Assembly: GCA_903862465.1 (NCBI GenBank)
Contig: CAIOYH010000152.1
Span: 1 to 54,751, forward strand
DNA from: an uncultured bacterium
GTDB lineage: Bacteria > Bacteroidota > Bacteroidia > Bacteroidales > CAIWKO01
Direction of reading: 5' to 3'
Length of the DNA stretch: 54,751 nucleotides
Shown one piece after another: positions 305-53,865 of the stretch (its first letter is position 1; every line of letters starts with the position of its first letter). The notes beneath the pieces are model-generated. The model was given only the letters and a program-made list of their open reading frames with translations, ran no database searches and had not been told where the DNA came from. The position numbers and the translations under genes were made by a program.

Positions 305-565
305 AACGAGTTTTTTAATCCCGAAGGGATGACATTATTATAATACGGATACAAAGGCTATCACGAACCCCGAAGGGGTGATATTATTTATGTCACCCCT
401 TCGGGGGTTTATCTCGCTTCATTTTGTTCTTTCTATAATAATGGCACCCCTTCGGGGTTTTAGGCAAAAGCGTTAAAGGATAAAGGCGGCTGAGGCAGAG
501 ACTAGCATTGAAGGGGATTTCCGCAGAACGGGATAGTCCTGTAAGGACGACATTATTATTCGAAA
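305..565. repeat. Cluster of five dispersed hairpins, ATAATAATGTC-stem family
   Basis: Short hairpins lie near 318 (ATCCC-gaa-GGGAT), 367 (ACCCC-gaa-GGGGT), 395 (ACCCC-ttc-GGGGG), 445 (ACCCC-ttc-GGGGT) and 525 (GTCC-tgta-GGAC). Most are joined to a GACATTATTAT-like arm, in both orientations. The stem bases differ between copies but stay paired. The same family builds the array at 11289-11815. I see no gene in 1-621. Confidence 0.75.
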
Positions 566-3858: not shown

Positions 3859-3945
3859 AACATTTTTCTAAATCCCCTCACCAAAAAAAATCCCCCCTTC
3901 CCAAAGTCCCCTGCTCCCACCCAAAAAAAACACTTCCTATCATTT

Positions 3946-4200
3946 CGGTCGGAACGTTCGTTACTTCTGTCGGAACGTTCGTTATTTCGGTTGGAACGTT
4001 CGTTATTTCTGTCGGAACGTTCGTTATTTCTGTTGGAACGTTCGTTATTTCGGTCGGAACGTTCGTTATTTCAATCGGAACGTTCGTTATTTCTGTCGGA
4101 ACGTTCGTTACTTCTGTCGGAACGTTCGTTACTTCGGTCGGAACGTTCGTTATTTCTGTCGGAACGTTCGTTACTTCTGTCGGAACGTTCGTTCCGTCGG
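3946..4200. repeat. 21-bp tandem array 2 (12 units)
   Basis: Twelve exactly spaced units of GTCGGAACGTTCGTTATTTC plus one base. The core GAACGTTC, an 8-bp perfect palindrome, starts at 3952 and every 21 bases to 4183. Linkers vary only at a few positions. All frames can stay open because 21 is a multiple of 3, which creates spurious heptapeptide ORFs (ISVGTFV, SERSLFL). The regular palindromes two helical turns apart would suit a DNA-binding protein. Confidence 0.95.
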
Positions 4201-9785: not shown

Positions 9786-10442
9786 TTGAAAAAAGCCTTA
9801 CTGCTCAAAGCTTTACTAGTAATTTTCGTTGTATTATTTCTCGACCAATTTGTCAAAATTTGGATTAAGACGCACTTTTATTACGGCGAAACCTTTCATG
9901 TGTTTGGGCTAAATTGGTTTCAAATTCATTTTATCGAAAACAATGGCATGGCTTTCGGGATGGAATTTGCCGGGAATTATGGCAAAATTTTCCTGACCGT
10001 GTTTCGCCTGATTGCTAGTAGCGGGATTGCTTATTATCTTTATATCCTCATAAAAAAAGAAGCAAACTCGTTTCTGATTATTACGATTGCGTTGATTTTT
10101 ACGGGTGCTATCGGCAATATTTTGGATAGTATGTTTTATGGATTGATGTTTAGCGAAAGTACCATGTTTGATAAGGCGGTTTTTATGCCGACGGGAGGTG
10201 GTTATAGCACGTTTCTCTATGGCAAAGTGGTGGATATGTTTTATTTTCCTGTAATCAATACCACTTGGCCCCATTGGATTCCTTTCATTGGGGGCAGTTC
10301 TTTGGAGTTTTTTCAACCCATATTTAATGTTGCTGATAGTGCCATCACTATCGGTGTGTTCCTCCTATTAATTTTTCAAAAACGAATGTTCAAACCAAGC
10401 AAAGCTGCGGAAGTAAGTGAGGTTGCAGAAGCGAAGGAATAA
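9786..10442 (+). CDS. lspA: Lipoprotein signal peptidase (signal peptidase II)
   Basis: LspA is the inner-membrane aspartyl protease that removes signal peptides from prolipoproteins. Four hydrophobic segments are visible, with DQFVK after the first, FIENNGMAFG, and the two catalytic aspartates D114 (NILDS) and D184 (NVADS). The TTG start at 9786 is chosen because no ATG lies before NNGMAFG. At 218 residues it is longer than E. coli LspA (164) because of loops between helices and a Glu-rich tail. Its work here would include the lipoproteins at 40099, 42816 and 54643. Confidence 0.95.
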   Translation: MKKALLLKALLVIFVVLFLDQFVKIWIKTHFYYGETFHVFGLNWFQIHFIENNGMAFGMEFAGNYGKIFLTVFRLIASSGIAYYLYILIKKEANSFLIITIALIFTGAIGNILDSMFYGLMFSESTMFDKAVFMPTGGGYSTFLYGKVVDMFYFPVINTTWPHWIPFIGGSSLEFFQPIFNVADSAITIGVFLLLIFQKRMFKPSKAAEVSEVAEAKE

Positions 10443-10450
10443 GTTTTGTT

Positions 10451-10804
10451 TTACTCTTTTTGTTTGAGTTGCTTGAGTTGGGTGGCTAGTATTTCGTTTG
10501 TTTGATTTTGAAGACGTAGATGCACTTTTAGGAGTTCGTTTTCTTGTTGTAAATCTTTAATTTGTTTTGTTAGTTGGATTTTTTCTGCTTTGGTGAGCGG
10601 GTTGGTATCATCATAATAGTATTGAAAAAAATTATGATCTAACTCTTTGGAGATGCGTTGCAGCATGTGAAGGGAGATGTCGGGTTGGAATAAAAGTCTA
10701 TACATGCCTGAGCGGCTAAACCCTAATTTTTGGGCTAAGGTGGGGACAGAAATGTGCTTTTGATAGCTTATCTCCTTGATTTTTTGTCCAATATCTGTTA
10801 TCAT
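10451..10804 (-). CDS. XRE-type HTH protein with C-terminal coiled coil
   Basis: A 117-residue protein. Residues of about 1-55 form a helix-turn-helix (IGQKIKEIS, then VPTLAQKLGFSRSGMYRLL). Residues of about 70-117 are a Gln/Leu/Lys-rich coiled coil (LTKQIKDLQQENELLKVHLR), probably for dimerisation. It converges on lspA with an 8-base gap. It is a likely DNA-binding regulator with unknown targets. The repeats just upstream (10877-11815) are possible sites, but that is speculation. Confidence 0.85.
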   Translation of the reverse strand: MITDIGQKIKEISYQKHISVPTLAQKLGFSRSGMYRLLFQPDISLHMLQRISKELDHNFFQYYYDDTNPLTKAEKIQLTKQIKDLQQENELLKVHLRLQNQTNEILATQLKQLKQKE

Positions 10805-10876
10805 ATCGTTTTAATTTTTCTGCAAAAATACAAATTTTTCTTTTATCTTTATAAAAAATCTTTTAGGATTGGACGA

Positions 10877-11086
10877 ATGGTACCTTTTAGTATATAAACG
10901 GTACTTAAATAAAGATAACAGTACGTTGGAAAAGGAGAAAAGGTACTTGGAAGAGGATTATCGTTGCTTGGAAGAGGATAAACGTCTATTAAAAGAGGAC
11001 ACACGGGCATTGGAATGAAGGAGTGGATGGTTGGGAGGGATGTGAGTTGGTTTGGAAGTGATATGAGATTGGATTGGAGGTATAGG
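10877..11086. repeat. 21-bp tandem array 3 (about 10 degenerate units)
   Basis: Units near nnGGTACTTGGAAGAGGATA plus one base run from 10877 in exact 21-base steps and grow more divergent to the right (GTTGGGAGGGATGTG, GTTTGGAAGTGATATG). Read on the minus strand they give a spurious proline-rich heptad ORF. It is the most decayed of the five 21-bp arrays. Confidence 0.75.
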
Positions 11087-11288
11087 TGGGCGGTGGATGG
11101 TAGGGGCAATTAAGTAGGTTATGGGTTTCGCGTCTCGTTTTAATCAATATTCAAAGCGATATTGTGTTCCAAAGTGTAGCGTGGGTGGCATGATAATATC
11201 ATCCCTTCGGGATTTTAAATAGCATTGTTGGATTATTTTCTATAATAATTACAGTCCTTCGGACTTATAGGAAATATCAGCATATTTC

Positions 11289-11815
11289 TACCATAATGTC
11301 GCCCCGATGGGGCTTGATTTCCTTGGCGTATATATTTCTACCATAATGTCGTCCCGATGGGACTTGATTTTCTTAACGTGCGCTTTTCTACCATAATGTC
11401 GTCCCGATGGGACTTGATTTTCATTCCGTACGTTTTTCTACCATAATGTCGTCCCTAACGGGACTTGTTTTTCTTTATGTGCCTTTTTCTACCATAATGT
11501 CGCCCCGATGGGGCTTGATTTTCTTGGCGTATATTTTTCTACCATAATGTCGTCCCGATGGGACTTGATTTTCATTACGTGCATATTTCTACCATAATGT
11601 CGCCCCGATGGGGCTTGATTTTCTTAACGTGCGCTTTTCTACCATAATGTCGTCCCGATGGGACTTGATTTTTATTCCGTACGTTTTTCTACCATAATGT
11701 CGTCCCGATGGGACTTGATTTTCATTCCGTACGTTTTTCTACCATAATGTCGTCCCGATGGGACTTGTTTTTGTTGTGATCAATATTCCTACCGATATTG
11801 TGTCCCTATGGGACA
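11289..11815. repeat. 50-bp hairpin array (11 units)
   Basis: Eleven units, each starting TACCATAATGTC, at 11289, 11339, 11389, 11439, 11490 and then every 50 bases to 11790. About 37 bases are conserved and 13 vary. Each unit holds a 5-bp stem with a short loop: GTCCC-gat-GGGAC in most, GCCCC-gat-GGGGC in units 1, 5 and 7, and loops taac in unit 4 and tat in unit 11. The second stem pair changes on both sides together. Variable segments recur (TTAACGTGCGCT twice, ATTCCGTACGTT three times). Related single hairpins lie at 11195-11280. The last unit (CAATATTCCTACCGATATTG) resembles 11146-11168, so the array has matched ends. Confidence 0.9.
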
Positions 11816-12083
11816 ATAGAATTACGAAATTTCGGTATCCCGTAGGAGTTATATATCCAAAGAAAAAAAAGGAGTTGAATTTAAGTCTGCAGCCTTATTG
11901 GGAGGTAGGCGATAGGGATGACAAAAGAGTTAATCGGACAACAATGGATTTATATATAATTTTCATCTTAATGGATAAGGAATTTGGAATAAAAAATTGA
12001 GTTCCAAAGTTACTAACAAAAGTATATTATTTTTGTGTGTATAAAAAGTGCAAGTTTTAGCGTTTGTTTATAATTACATCCAT

Positions 12084-12091
12084 TAATTTTG
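12084..12091 (+). promoter_or_regulatory. -7 box TAATTTTG for the AsmA-like gene
   Basis: Twelve bases before the GTG start at 12104. The TTG at 12089 lies inside the box. Confidence 0.55.
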
Positions 12092-12103
12092 CAAAAAAAA
12101 TCT

Positions 12104-14716
12104 GTGAAGAAGTTCAGTTTACGTATTCGAAATCCAAAAGTGGCGAAAAGGCTTAGAAAGACGGCTATTTGGTTGGGGATTGTTTTTTTGCTTGTGGGAG
12201 GGGTAGGCATTTTTATGGAATATTATTATGAAGATACGGTGAAAGGTATCATCATCAATGAATTGAATGCAAGGTTGAATACTGAAATTGTTGTTCAAGA
12301 TGTGAATAGGGATATACAATTTTCTATATTTAAGAAGTTTCCTTATGCTTCGGTGAGCTTCAGTAATGTTGTTATTTTGGATGCTATCAAGGATAAAAAA
12401 AATAAGAAAAATCTGTTGGAAGCCAAAACAGTTTATTTGCAGATGAGCATTTGGGATTTGATTTTTGGGAAATTTCGGATACAAAAAATTGAAGTGAGCG
12501 ATGCCGTTGCCTTGATTAAAACGTATAAAGATCGCAGCGATAACTATCATTTTTGGAAACCATCAACCGACACAACGAAGACAAACTTCTCGTTGGATTT
12601 ACAAAAAGTGTGGCTGAATCATGTGCGCGTGGCGTATATAGATTATGGTCGGAGGCAGAATTTTACGGTGGTGGCTAAGGATGTGTTGTTCACGGGGAAT
12701 TTTTCGGACGAGAGTTTTTTGATGCATATTGATGGGGATATGTATGTTGAGAAAATAAAATCGGAGAACAATTTGTATCTTGCCAACAAAAGCACCAAGA
12801 TGGAAGTGGCGATGGATATTAATAGTAAACAAAAATTGATTACGTTTCAAGAAGCCAATGTGAGCGTTGGGAAGTTGTTTTTCGCTTTGGCAGGAAATAT
12901 TGCTTATGGCGATAGTTTGACGCGTCTTGATTTGCAGATTGATGGAAAAAAGATGCAGTTGCAATCGTTCGTTAATGAATTGCCACCGCAATATCGTTCG
13001 TATTTTGCAGGATATGAATGTAGGGGGGATTTTTATTTTGTTGCTAATATAAAAGGAGCTGTGGGAGAGAAGGTTTCTCCTGCCGTGAATGTTACTTTTG
13101 GGCTGAAGCAAGGCGAAATTGAGCGAACGGAAAATGGTATCACCTTAAAAAATGTGGGTTTCAATGCTACTTATAGCAATGGATTGAAGCATTGTTCGCA
13201 GACGGCAATCGTCAGGATAAACGGATATACTTCTGCCTTAAATGATGGCAGTATCACGGGAAATATCACCCTGAAAAACTTGACGAATCCTGAGCTCGAC
13301 CTGAATGTTACGGCGAATTTGAATTTGAAGGACGTGTTTGATTTCATGAAGATAGATACGGTGGAATCGGCGGAGGGAAGGCTGATTCTGCAAGCCGATT
13401 TTAAAGGAAACACGGGCAGTTCGGGCACTTTCACCATGAAAGATTTTATAGCAAGCACTACGACGGGAAAAATGGAGCTTCAGAATGCCAACATTGTGAT
13501 GAAAGGCAAGGCGCAGAAGTTCACCAATGTGAATGGGAATTTTGTTTTCAGCAATAATGATGTGGAGTCGCAAAATTTCACGGGCAGCTATATGACGAAT
13601 GATTTTTCGTTGAAAGGACGTTTCAAAAATATACTTCCCTATTTGTTTCTGCCGAATCAAAATTTGATTATTGATGCCGATTTGGTTTCGCAAAACTTAG
13701 ACATGGCAGAAATTTTAAAGTTTTCGGAGAGCAAAAAGGATACGGTTTATCGTTTGAATTTGCCCGATAATATCAGTTTTAACCTTGCGTTGCTGATTAA
13801 AAAATTTAGCTTTAATAAATTCATTGCTACCAATATTACCGGCACTATTCAGATGAAAAATAAGCAAGTGATAGCAAAAAATATTTCGTTGCAAGCGATG
13901 AATGGGAAGATAGATTTCACGGGATTGATTGATGGGTCGCAGGCTGAGAAATTGCTGATAAGTTGTGATGCTTCGATCAAACGTGTGAACATTGAACGAT
14001 TGTTTGGCGAGTTGGATAATTTCGGACAAAAAAGTCTTCAAGATAAGAATATCAAAGGGGTGCTTACGGCGGATGTTCAGTTTGCTTCCGTTTGGTCGTC
14101 AACGTTTAAAGTGGAGAAGCCGACGATTTATGCGAAAGCGAATATCATGATAGATAATGGCGAATTAATCAATTATGAACCCTTGAGCGGCTTGTCTAAA
14201 TATTTGAAAAACCGTGACCTTTCGCATGTGGCATTTCAGACGCTAAAAAATACGATAGTGATAAAAGATCAATTGATTACGATACCCGATATGGAAATAA
14301 ATAGCAATGCGATTGATTTTAAATTGAACGGCACGCACGGATTTAACCAAACGATAGATTATCATTTGGGGGTGTTGATTGCGCAAATACGCAACACGGG
14401 CGACAAAAAGAACAATCAAATTAAAGATATAGGGCAAATTGAAGACGATGGGCTTCACAAAGAAAAATATTTTTTCCGTATCACGGGCACCGTTGACAAA
14501 CCTGTGTATCATACTCTAGACAAAGAAGGTTATAAGCAAAACATGAAAAACAATTTGGCGAAGGAAAAAGAAAACCTGAAAACCATCTTGAATAGGGAGT
14601 TTGGTTGGTTTAAGAAGGATAGCACGGTGATGAAAAATCCAAAGGACAAGCCGAAACCTACCTACGATTTTAATGTGATTTGGGATGAAGATGAGGCTCC
14701 GGCGAAGAAAGAATAA
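12104..14716 (+). CDS. AsmA-like inner-membrane/periplasmic protein
   Basis: An 870-residue protein with one N-terminal membrane helix (TAIWLGIVFLLVGGVGIF) and a long beta-rich periplasmic part. The pattern after the helix (LNARLNTEIVVQDVNRDI..FPYASVSFSNVVI) and the C-terminal GTHGFNQTIDYHLGVLI segment are typical of the AsmA family, thought to carry lipids between membranes or assist outer-membrane assembly. The GTG at 12104 is chosen because the upstream TTG overlaps the promoter box. The C-terminus is Lys/Glu/Pro-rich. It stands alone, followed by a new promoter. Confidence 0.88.
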   Translation: MKKFSLRIRNPKVAKRLRKTAIWLGIVFLLVGGVGIFMEYYYEDTVKGIIINELNARLNTEIVVQDVNRDIQFSIFKKFPYASVSFSNVVILDAIKDKKNKKNLLEAKTVYLQMSIWDLIFGKFRIQKIEVSDAVALIKTYKDRSDNYHFWKPSTDTTKTNFSLDLQKVWLNHVRVAYIDYGRRQNFTVVAKDVLFTGNFSDESFLMHIDGDMYVEKIKSENNLYLANKSTKMEVAMDINSKQKLITFQEANVSVGKLFFALAGNIAYGDSLTRLDLQIDGKKMQLQSFVNELPPQYRSYFAGYECRGDFYFVANIKGAVGEKVSPAVNVTFGLKQGEIERTENGITLKNVGFNATYSNGLKHCSQTAIVRINGYTSALNDGSITGNITLKNLTNPELDLNVTANLNLKDVFDFMKIDTVESAEGRLILQADFKGNTGSSGTFTMKDFIASTTTGKMELQNANIVMKGKAQKFTNVNGNFVFSNNDVESQNFTGSYMTNDFSLKGRFKNILPYLFLPNQNLIIDADLVSQNLDMAEILKFSESKKDTVYRLNLPDNISFNLALLIKKFSFNKFIATNITGTIQMKNKQVIAKNISLQAMNGKIDFTGLIDGSQAEKLLISCDASIKRVNIERLFGELDNFGQKSLQDKNIKGVLTADVQFASVWSSTFKVEKPTIYAKANIMIDNGELINYEPLSGLSKYLKNRDLSHVAFQTLKNTIVIKDQLITIPDMEINSNAIDFKLNGTHGFNQTIDYHLGVLIAQIRNTGDKKNNQIKDIGQIEDDGLHKEKYFFRITGTVDKPVYHTLDKEGYKQNMKNNLAKEKENLKTILNREFGWFKKDSTVMKNPKDKPKPTYDFNVIWDEDEAPAKKE

Positions 14717-20372: not shown

Positions 20373-20615
20373 AATGCAAAGAATTGCTGTTGTATTGCAA
20401 AGTTTCACTGTTGTGTTGCAAAGTTTCGTTGTTGTGTTGCAAAGTTTCGCTGTTGTGTTGTAAAGTTTCGCTGTTGTGTTGCAAAGTTTCACTGTTGTGT
20501 TGCAAAGTTTCGCTGTTATGTTGCAAAGTTTCGCTGTTGTGTTGCAAAGTTTCACTGTTGTGTTGCAAAGTTTCGCTGTTGTGTTGCAAAGATTCGCTGT
20601 TGTGTTGCAAAGATT
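20373..20615. repeat. 21-bp tandem array 4 (12 units)
   Basis: Units of GTTGTGTTGCAAAGTTTCGC plus one base. TGCAAAG (once TGTAAAG) recurs every 21 bases from 20375 to 20606, giving 12 units; the first is degenerate. Repetition keeps frames open on both strands (SETLQHN, CCVAKFR), which are not genes. The flanks at 20160-20340 hold only AT-rich sequence with a doubled AAGTAATAAAGTT. Confidence 0.95.
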
Positions 20616-36092: not shown

Positions 36093-36307
36093 ATAGGCAA
36101 CCTAGAGTGGGTTGCCATATCTGCCAAATGTCAACATAGGCAAACTACTGTAGGTTGCCATATCTGCCAAATGTCAACATAGGCAAACTACTGTAGGTTG
36201 CCATATCTGCCAAATGACAACATAGGCAAACTAGTGTGGGTTGCCATATCTGCCAAATGTCAACATAGGCAAACTACTGTAGGTTGGCATATCTGCCAAA
36301 TGTCAGA
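36093..36307. repeat. 43-bp tandem array (5 units)
   Basis: Units start ATAGGCAAAC at 36093, 36136, 36179, 36222 and 36265. Each contains GGTTGCCATATCTGCCAAAT. In unit 1 GGCAACC pairs with GGGTTGCC to form a hairpin; in later units the pairing is weaker. No ORF. The rest of 35956-36340 is AT-rich with no other feature. Confidence 0.9.
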
Positions 36308-53604: not shown

Positions 53605-53865
53605 GGAACGAACGTTCCGTCAGAAGTAACGAACGTTCCGACCGAAATAACGAACGTTCCGACAGAAGTAACGAACGTTCCGACAGAAATAACGAACGTT
53701 CCGACAGAAATAACGAACGTTCCGACAGAAATAACGAACGTTCCGATTGAAATAACGAACGTTCCAACAGAAATAACGAACGTTCCAACAGAAATAACGA
53801 ACGTTCCGACAGAAATAACGAACGTTCCGACAGAAGTAACGAACGTTCCGACCGAAATGATAGGA
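53605..53865. repeat. 21-bp tandem array 5 (12 units, inverse of array 2)
   Basis: GAACGTTC starts at 53610 and recurs every 21 bases to 53841, twelve times, as in array 2. Variant linkers (GTTGG, AATCGG) occur in both arrays but at different ranks, so units have diverged since duplication. Confidence 0.95.

Follow-up and report, generated by a model that had tools for sequence, protein, structure and literature searches.

A question raised by contig CAIOYH010000152.1 of an uncultured Bacteroidales bacterium (assembly GCA_903862465.1) is what kind of DNA its 50-bp repeat array represents. Within the stretch of 54,751 nucleotides that was analysed (hereafter the window), the units of this array share a 5-bp hairpin stem, and an original prediction, made from the letters alone, held that paired changes in the stem reveal selection on the fold, as RNA or as single-stranded DNA. 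From sequence comparison, we consider it quite probable that the array arose when the outer terminal hairpin unit of a family of mobile elements was multiplied in tandem, and that a Y1 (HUH) transposase of the subclass 1.2 type serves this family. Genes for transposases of this type often carry, at an end, two 5-bp hairpins of the same orientation about 51 bp apart, with the two ends inverted relative to one another.

The array, its hairpin family and the paired stem changes

The predicted array of eleven 50-bp units with a shared 5-bp stem was recovered as ten units of 50 or 51 bp and a diverged eleventh (Tandem Repeats Finder score, 687). The units start at 11285, 11335, 11385, 11435, 11486, 11536, 11586, 11636, 11686 and 11736, and the diverged copy at 11786; the step is 50 bp except for unit 4, which has 51 bp and the loop TAAC. 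Each unit consists of TTTCTACCATAATGTC, then the 5-bp hairpin, then a linker of about 20 bp. Units 1, 5 and 7 have the stem GCCCC/GGGGC and the remaining units GTCCC/GGGAC, just as the proposed paired change from T-A to C-G would have it. The prediction also spoke of about 13 variable bases that recur in a few types; sorted by eye, the linkers do recur, in the order a, b, c, d, a, e, b, c, c, tail. Given this recurring order, the array probably grew by duplication of one or several units. A CRISPR-like reading was considered and dropped, as the variable parts recur in the array and resemble both one another and the linkers of the B-type composites described below.

Together with two preceding hairpins, the array forms a single run of 13 evenly spaced hairpins with perfect stems (11201-11814; spacings 52, 48, 50, 50, 50, 51, 50, 50, 50, 50, 50 and 50). 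The tetranucleotide CTAY stands about 9 nt 5' of the stem in 12 of the 13, the exception being the first. The family features of the window are as follows.

11185..11272, plus strand: two hairpins (stems 11201-11213 and 11253-11265), the right half of an A-type composite and the first two members of the 13-hairpin run (38.0 and 41.5 bits with covariance model R2; alignment with A-type copies; spacing)
11285..11785, plus strand: ten-unit array, hairpin starts 11301, 11351, 11401, 11451, 11502, 11552, 11602, 11652, 11702 and 11752 (repeat finding, model R2, hairpin scan)
11786..11860, plus strand: eleventh, diverged unit, the right half of a C-type composite (CCTACCGATATTGTGTCCCTATGGGACA ... TATCCCGTAGGAGTT; R2, 30.0 bits; MAFFT alignment with C-type copies)
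11930..11946, minus strand: terminal inverted repeat CATTGTTGTCCGATTAA of B- and C-type composites, about 8 bp from the insertion edge (pattern search)
311..564, both strands: second family cluster, with hairpins at 311-346 (-), 360-395 (-), 378-414 (+), 430-465 (+) and 532-564 (-), the first four forming a - - + + composite (covariance model)

Model R2 was built from 11 window hairpins, and its matches in the window are therefore given by construction; a previous model, R1, had its structure misplaced and was dropped. The single hairpins near 305-565 and 11195-11280, which had been assigned to the same family, are matched at 311-564 and 11185-11272, with the reservation that the model was built from these sites. 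The search of the organism's own genome scored 150 of 2637 candidates, with E-values that are rough owing to a short calibration. It gave at least 95 matches at E<=1, 18 of them in the window, and 85 of the 95 have another match within 150 bp. Among 39 genomes searched, the own one included, matches at E<=0.01 number 41 in the own genome, 28 in a close relative (G003) and 39 in a third genome (G038); four others have one or two and 32 have none. At their foot, 72 of 100 distinct own hairpins have the exact consensus TDTC, and none has GT[AG]G. Family members also lie within about 400 bp of contig ends on own contigs C190, C110, C210, C33, C199, C122 and C11; assembly may therefore break at these repeats, and the copy number of the family is possibly underestimated.

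Many copies form composites of two to four hairpins that are dispersed across the own genome without a gene, and composites occur in G003 as well. The A-type is arranged - - + +, with spacings of about 51, 18 and 52; the B-type is arranged + + - -; a third kind is termed C-type. Both B and C composites end in the imperfect inverted repeat CAYTGTTGTCCGRTNAA. The linker of the array is similar to the one that separates the first two hairpins in B-type composites, and by alignment the window locus is a mosaic of half an A-type composite, an array with B-like linker and half a C-type composite with the terminal repeat at 11930-11946.

The case for pairing is to be sought in this whole family, not in the array. 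Within the array the paired change is weak evidence, for units 1, 5 and 7 may require one or two events at most: units 1 and 5 share a linker type, as after one duplication, and unit 7 possibly stems from conversion of a 13-bp stretch. The genome-wide covariation analysis that the prediction had called for drew on 35 fetched sources and 113 aligned matches, of which 100 are distinct and provide 500 stem cells. Of these cells, 98.2% pair (79.5% in shuffles) and 114 are altered on both sides (33.5 +/- 5.3 in shuffles); the covariation score is 0.616, as against 0.235 in shuffles and 0.119 in the best slid control. The idea that paired changes preserve the stem is thus upheld genome-wide on three of five covariation measures; on the other two the observed values lie within the shuffles, and the array by itself adds little.

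Because the covariance model itself expects pairing, sites were also chosen by the 5' flank TTCTAY[CA][AG]WWWT alone, with the stem left unused. At the expected offset, 39 of 46 distinct contexts had four or five pairs, and 33 had all five, compared with 0-3 at four other offsets; a looser motif that omits TT gave 53 of 94, compared with 0-5 elsewhere. A first version of the flank motif, in which A/T positions were misplaced, gave four or five pairs at 24 of 73 sites (2-3 at other offsets) and was replaced by the corrected one. The 500 stem cells hold one G-U pair and six C-A mismatches, and this near-absence of G-U pairs points to pairing at the level of DNA.

Hairpins beside Y1 transposase genes

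A REP-associated tyrosine transposase (RAYT; REP, repetitive extragenic palindrome) had been suggested as something to look for elsewhere in the genome, and in a wide sense one is present. The gene at C35:19427-19882 encodes a protein that matches PF01797 (Y1_Tnp; 7.5e-24) and passes the NCBIfam model transpos_IS200 (66.6 bits; cut-off 55), and five family hairpins lie within about 190 bp of its ends. In the coordinates of that locus (L010), those at 1313 and 1363 (-) are downstream of the gene, and those at 1921 and 1974 (+) and 2004 (-) are upstream. The wide sense of REP applies here in that the palindromes are scattered (the 95 matches at E<=1), form - - + + and + + - - composites and flank this gene.

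The C35 protein has 152 residues, with a helix at 127-137 after the Y motif as a putative C-terminal extension. Its predicted fold (AlphaFold2; predicted local distance difference test, 87.4) was compared with solved structures by Foldseek, and the best matches are the IS608 and ISDra2 transposases, the query template-modelling scores being 0.52-0.61 among 30 matches at E<=0.001. The RAYT of E. coli (4er8) is the last of these 30 (3.3e-5), and no match to the REP_Tyr_transpos model NF047646 was obtained at E<=0.001. Across 11 aligned proteins, own ones included, H54, H56, W94, Q95, Y114, Q118, H121 and H122 are invariant and D53 is nearly so. By these residues the C35 transposase has the signature of TnpA-Y1 subclass 1.2 (DHIH, WQ and Y---Q--HH), and its length and the helix after the Y motif agree with the published figure of about 148 residues and a C-terminal extension.

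Related genes carry hairpins in the same places. The set examined was the best 80 of 572 confirmed GTDB stretches, with record titles that are mostly of Bacteroidota; it holds some near-duplicates (L144, of Flavobacterium segetis, and L160, of F. flabelliforme, have nearly equal flanks, L178 and L186 are one strain, L165 and L193 one genome, and L209 is the G003 locus L092). Hairpins were defined by a perfect stem of at least 5 bp with at least three G/C pairs and a loop of 3-4 nt. Such a hairpin lies within 150 bp upstream of the gene at 60 of 78 loci, downstream at 69 of 80 and on both sides at 51 of 78, against a background, beyond 600 bp, of 0-10% of 50-bp bins. By their loops, the upstream hairpins are oriented 94 minus to 6 plus (14 unassigned) and the downstream ones 92 plus to 12 minus (31 unassigned); far from the gene the split is 22 to 19. 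The two gene ends thus often carry oppositely oriented hairpins, inverted around the gene.

Each end further has an internal order. A distance of 45-57 bp, typically about 51 bp, separates the first two hairpins at 38 of 43 upstream ends and at 48 of 51 downstream ends. Of 90 such pairs, 59 have CTAY before the outer hairpin and 5 have it before the inner one. The foot consensus beside these genes is again TDTC (exact in 47 of 144; GT[AG]G in one of 144), and the commonest triplets after the hairpins are TTT, TAA and TTG. The 257 hairpins display 36 distinct stems, chance hairpins included. At L064 (genome G015) the gene stands between two near-identical composites of four hairpins each.

Runs comparable to that in the window recur beside related genes. 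At a step of 42-57 bp, runs of at least four hairpins were found at 13 of the 80 loci in any orientation and at 10 in one orientation; 7-mer-shuffled versions of the 80 loci had none of either kind. Examples are found in Desulfonema magnum (L208), beside its transposase, and at L183, on both sides. Runs occur in G038 too; in most of the fully shown ones the first hairpin is without CTAY, and CTAC (in a few cases CTGC) goes with the hairpins that follow. For this reason the repeated unit looks like the outer hairpin, in G038 as in the window. A shorter-period version of the array was seen on the reverse strand of L115 (G038:C126, 350-406), with three hairpins at a 28-bp step and almost no linker.

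Mobility, copying and alternative explanations

The region around the array has an orthologous counterpart in G003, and three further features are needed to describe it.

11119..11955, no strand: stretch without counterpart in the orthologous intergenic region of G003, edges approximate (blastn)
12089..14716, plus strand: adjoining gene of 875 residues, with a YhdP model match below cut-off, kept without the array in G003 (profile match; 96% identity over 504 residues)
10451..10804, minus strand: adjoining divergent gene of 117 residues, with HTH_26 and DUF6262 matches below their cut-offs (profile match)

When window positions 10000-13000 were compared with G003 (L219) by blastn, alignment extended to 11118 and resumed from 11955, with 57 unaligned bp between in G003. 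Insertion in the lineage of the window seems a simpler reading than deletion in G003, and the absence of the array from the orthologous place makes it look like mobile DNA, not a conserved RNA. Empty sites for single A-type copies were also sought in G003, and the flanks proved mosaic or paralogous; different composites lie between the same genes on own contig C122 and on G003:C324, with insertion edges that could not be fixed.

Enzymes of the IS608 type are described as binding hairpins in single-stranded DNA and as picking the sites to be cleaved by means of a guide sequence that lies 5' of the stem (PMC6006769 and PMC8266576). By analogy, the transposase would recognise the family hairpin in single-stranded DNA, and recognition of the fold would keep the stem palindromic while its letters drift. 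CTAY, about 9 nt 5' of the outer stem, could be part of the cleavage or guide sequence, and composites without a gene would be non-autonomous elements moved in trans. The array could then be copied in either of two ways: by re-insertion at CTAY by the transposase, or by replication slippage or unequal recombination between hairpin units.

The second of these is the essence of the strongest alternative, to which we give about an even chance. Under it, the array is an ordinary minisatellite, in which slippage or unequal recombination multiplied the unit between hairpins with no role for the transposase in the expansion, the hairpins still being parts of a mobile element. The order in which the window linkers recur fits duplications of single and multiple units; the linkers of G038 are alike within a run and differ between runs; and slippage could act on the two hairpins in a composite, as these are direct repeats. 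Left unexplained are the near-constant spacing of about 51 bp across many species and the recurrence of runs in one orientation at 10 of 80 loci. Both could be the material from which slippage starts, so that this alternative concerns the copying step only. A bolder proposal, possible but on balance doubtful, is that the subclass 1.2 transposases define a REP-like superfamily of their own, in which each end is a pair of 5-bp hairpins at a distance of some five DNA turns, the ends face one another across the gene in inverted order and CTAY marks the outer hairpin, and that head-to-tail arrays are the work of the transposase itself, which would insert single-stranded copies of the outer unit at CTAY.

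Another alternative, which we regard as improbable, is that the paired changes come from mutation and not from selection. The original prediction took covariation to mean selection; covariation alone is no proof of that, as both arms can also be rewritten by template switching at a short palindrome or by conversion of one copy by another. The change within the array spans 13 bp and may be one conversion event, and the different types of copy are found near one another, in mosaics. Different perfect stems nonetheless occur at the same place beside the transposase in many species, across which conversion inside one genome cannot act. Stems of 5 bp, moreover, are short for template switching. Least likely is an RNA or terminator element acting in the transcript (by termination, mRNA stability or 50-nt processing), since covarying stems and a loose terminator pattern found 11 times (the ten array hairpins on the plus strand and one further hairpin on the minus) versus 1.3 expected in the scanned region are opposed by the single G-U pair, by the lack of Rfam matches at gathering score other than two tRNAs, by the missing array in G003 and by hairpins on both strands of palindromic composites; the RNA half of the original claim is thus not supported.

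Several observations weigh against expansion of a transposase-served terminal unit. Two covariation measures do not stand out: all five stem pairs show double-sided change, but this was equalled in 46 of 500 shuffles, and the number of pair types was equalled in 186. The own genome has four PF01797 genes, and only that on C35 is flanked by family hairpins. The Y1 gene on C86 carries a different palindrome on both sides, the loci on C167 and C93 gave no R2 match at E<=1, and no hairpin unit at the C35 locus is identical to any array unit. Among the relatives, 27 of 78 loci are without a hairpin on one or both sides, and 31 of 90 outer hairpins have no CTAY. For the 39 matches of G038, no clear cognate emerged among the two transposase loci looked at: at L079, hairpins of the GCCCC/GGGGC type stand on a single side, some 200-300 bp away, and the palindromes of L120 are longer and of another kind. 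Finally, a pattern search did not find the B/C terminal inverted repeat at the C35 transposase, and a second enzyme may therefore move the B and C composites.

That terminal-repeat pattern, at one mismatch, has 10 sites in the own genome, 9 of them at hairpin composites, and the reversed pattern has none; the tenth lies between two putative glycosyltransferase genes. A DDE insertion sequence carrying the repeat was considered as a source, and no complete element was found at the ten sites.

Other repeats accompany the other Y1 genes. At C86 (L009, G000:C86:1-720; motif YIKNQEEHH) a longer palindrome, CCCTGTGCTTTAGCACGGGG, lies inside a longer direct repeat on both sides of the gene, and this second hairpin family seems tied to that second Y1 gene. 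The two similar genes at L011 and L012 (G000:C167 and C93) stand amid repeated tracts such as AACCTTCTAACCTTCT and CCTTAATACAAA. At L120 (G038:C225:3400-5800, 1453-1735) a palindrome of the CGCAGGCTGAAGCCTGCG type, of another family and period, is repeated eight times at a 38-bp step near a Y1 transposase gene. The window also has a 21-bp unit in two 12-copy arrays on opposite strands near its two ends (3942-4193 and 53607-53858), further 21-bp arrays at 3-190 and 20375-20612, and a 43-bp unit repeated five times, 93% alike, at 36093-36305.

Comparison with known systems

In IS608 each end carries a single hairpin, and both hairpins are on the same strand, whereas the ends described here are inverted hairpin pairs and composites without a gene are scattered through the genome. 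The likeness to the IS200/IS605 group lies in the fold, IS608 and ISDra2 being the closest solved structures to the C35 protein, and perhaps in the motif some nucleotides 5' of the hairpin, which would resemble the left-end cleavage and guide arrangement outlined in PMC6006769 and PMC8266576.

The REP systems of Proteobacteria are closer in layout. REPs, bacterial interspersed mosaic elements (BIMEs) and REP doublets forming hairpins (REPINs) that go with TnpA-REP (RAYT) are described, in the relevant parts of PMC6006769 and PMC3733652, as scattered short palindromes, often in inverted pairs, that flank a Y1 gene and also occur without one; each such transposase has its own repeat family, and tandem BIME copies are mentioned in PMC8266576. 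Short palindromes in inverted pairs around a Y1 gene, with additional copies that have no gene, are what these REPtrons share with the present family. Here, by contrast, the stem has 5 bp, GT[AG]G stands at the foot in one of 144 cases, and CTAY lies about 9 nt away, mainly at the outer hairpin. Each end has two hairpins of the same orientation about 51 bp apart, runs keep one orientation, and the transposase has Y---Q--HH and is not a class 2 TnpA-REP.

The CGTC-tagged REPs are similar to our family at the foot: TGTC variants of them are noted in the account of Di Nocera et al. (2013, PMC3733652), and the consensus here is TDTC. According to that account, CGTC-tagged REPs occur in Bacteroidetes as well and have no known transposase. 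Theirs have stems of 8-9 bp, loops of 4-5, CCA tails and negligible head-to-tail dimers; ours have a 5-bp stem, a loop of 3-4 nt, a T-rich 3' side and common same-orientation pairs. The BrickBuilt miniature inverted-repeat transposable element of Porphyromonas gingivalis (PMC4596501) is likewise a miniature element of Bacteroidota with a tandem array and terminal inverted repeats, but its terminal repeats are like those of ISPg1 and ISPg9, and its description, as far as drawn on here, includes no link to a Y1 transposase.

Two transposase subclasses of the 2018 classification of Quentin et al. (PMC6006769) bear directly on the C35 protein. Subclass 2.6, mostly of Bacteroidetes, is portrayed there as having weak, atypical secondary structures on the flanks of its genes; these structures lack GT[AG]G and recur at other places in the genome, and by description they resemble the present family. 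The motifs differ, being YIH[QN]NP and NH[LIV]H in that subclass and YIMRQEEHH and DHIH here. Subclass 1.2 has DHIH, WQ and Y---Q--HH, about 148 residues with a C-terminal extension, and a distribution in Bacteroidetes and Cyanobacteria, and the C35 protein shares these motifs and a length of about 150 residues. The table of that paper enters "no" for REPs in this subclass, whereas hairpins were found on both sides at 51 of 78 of the closest relatives. Among the open-licence papers listed for RAYT, REP, REPIN and Y1 in Bacteroidetes, or for miniature elements and stem-loops of Bacteroidetes, we found no account of hairpins at subclass 1.2 genes. New in this respect are the regular ends, of two hairpins each, beside genes of a subclass that was recorded without them. 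A class described without REP-like ends thereby gains a defined DNA substrate that can be tested. The polarity between inner and outer hairpins, together with their near-constant spacing, hints at a way in which such an enzyme could grip both hairpins of an end, and the arrays provide natural series of units on which to measure whether tandem repeats are built by HUH transposases.
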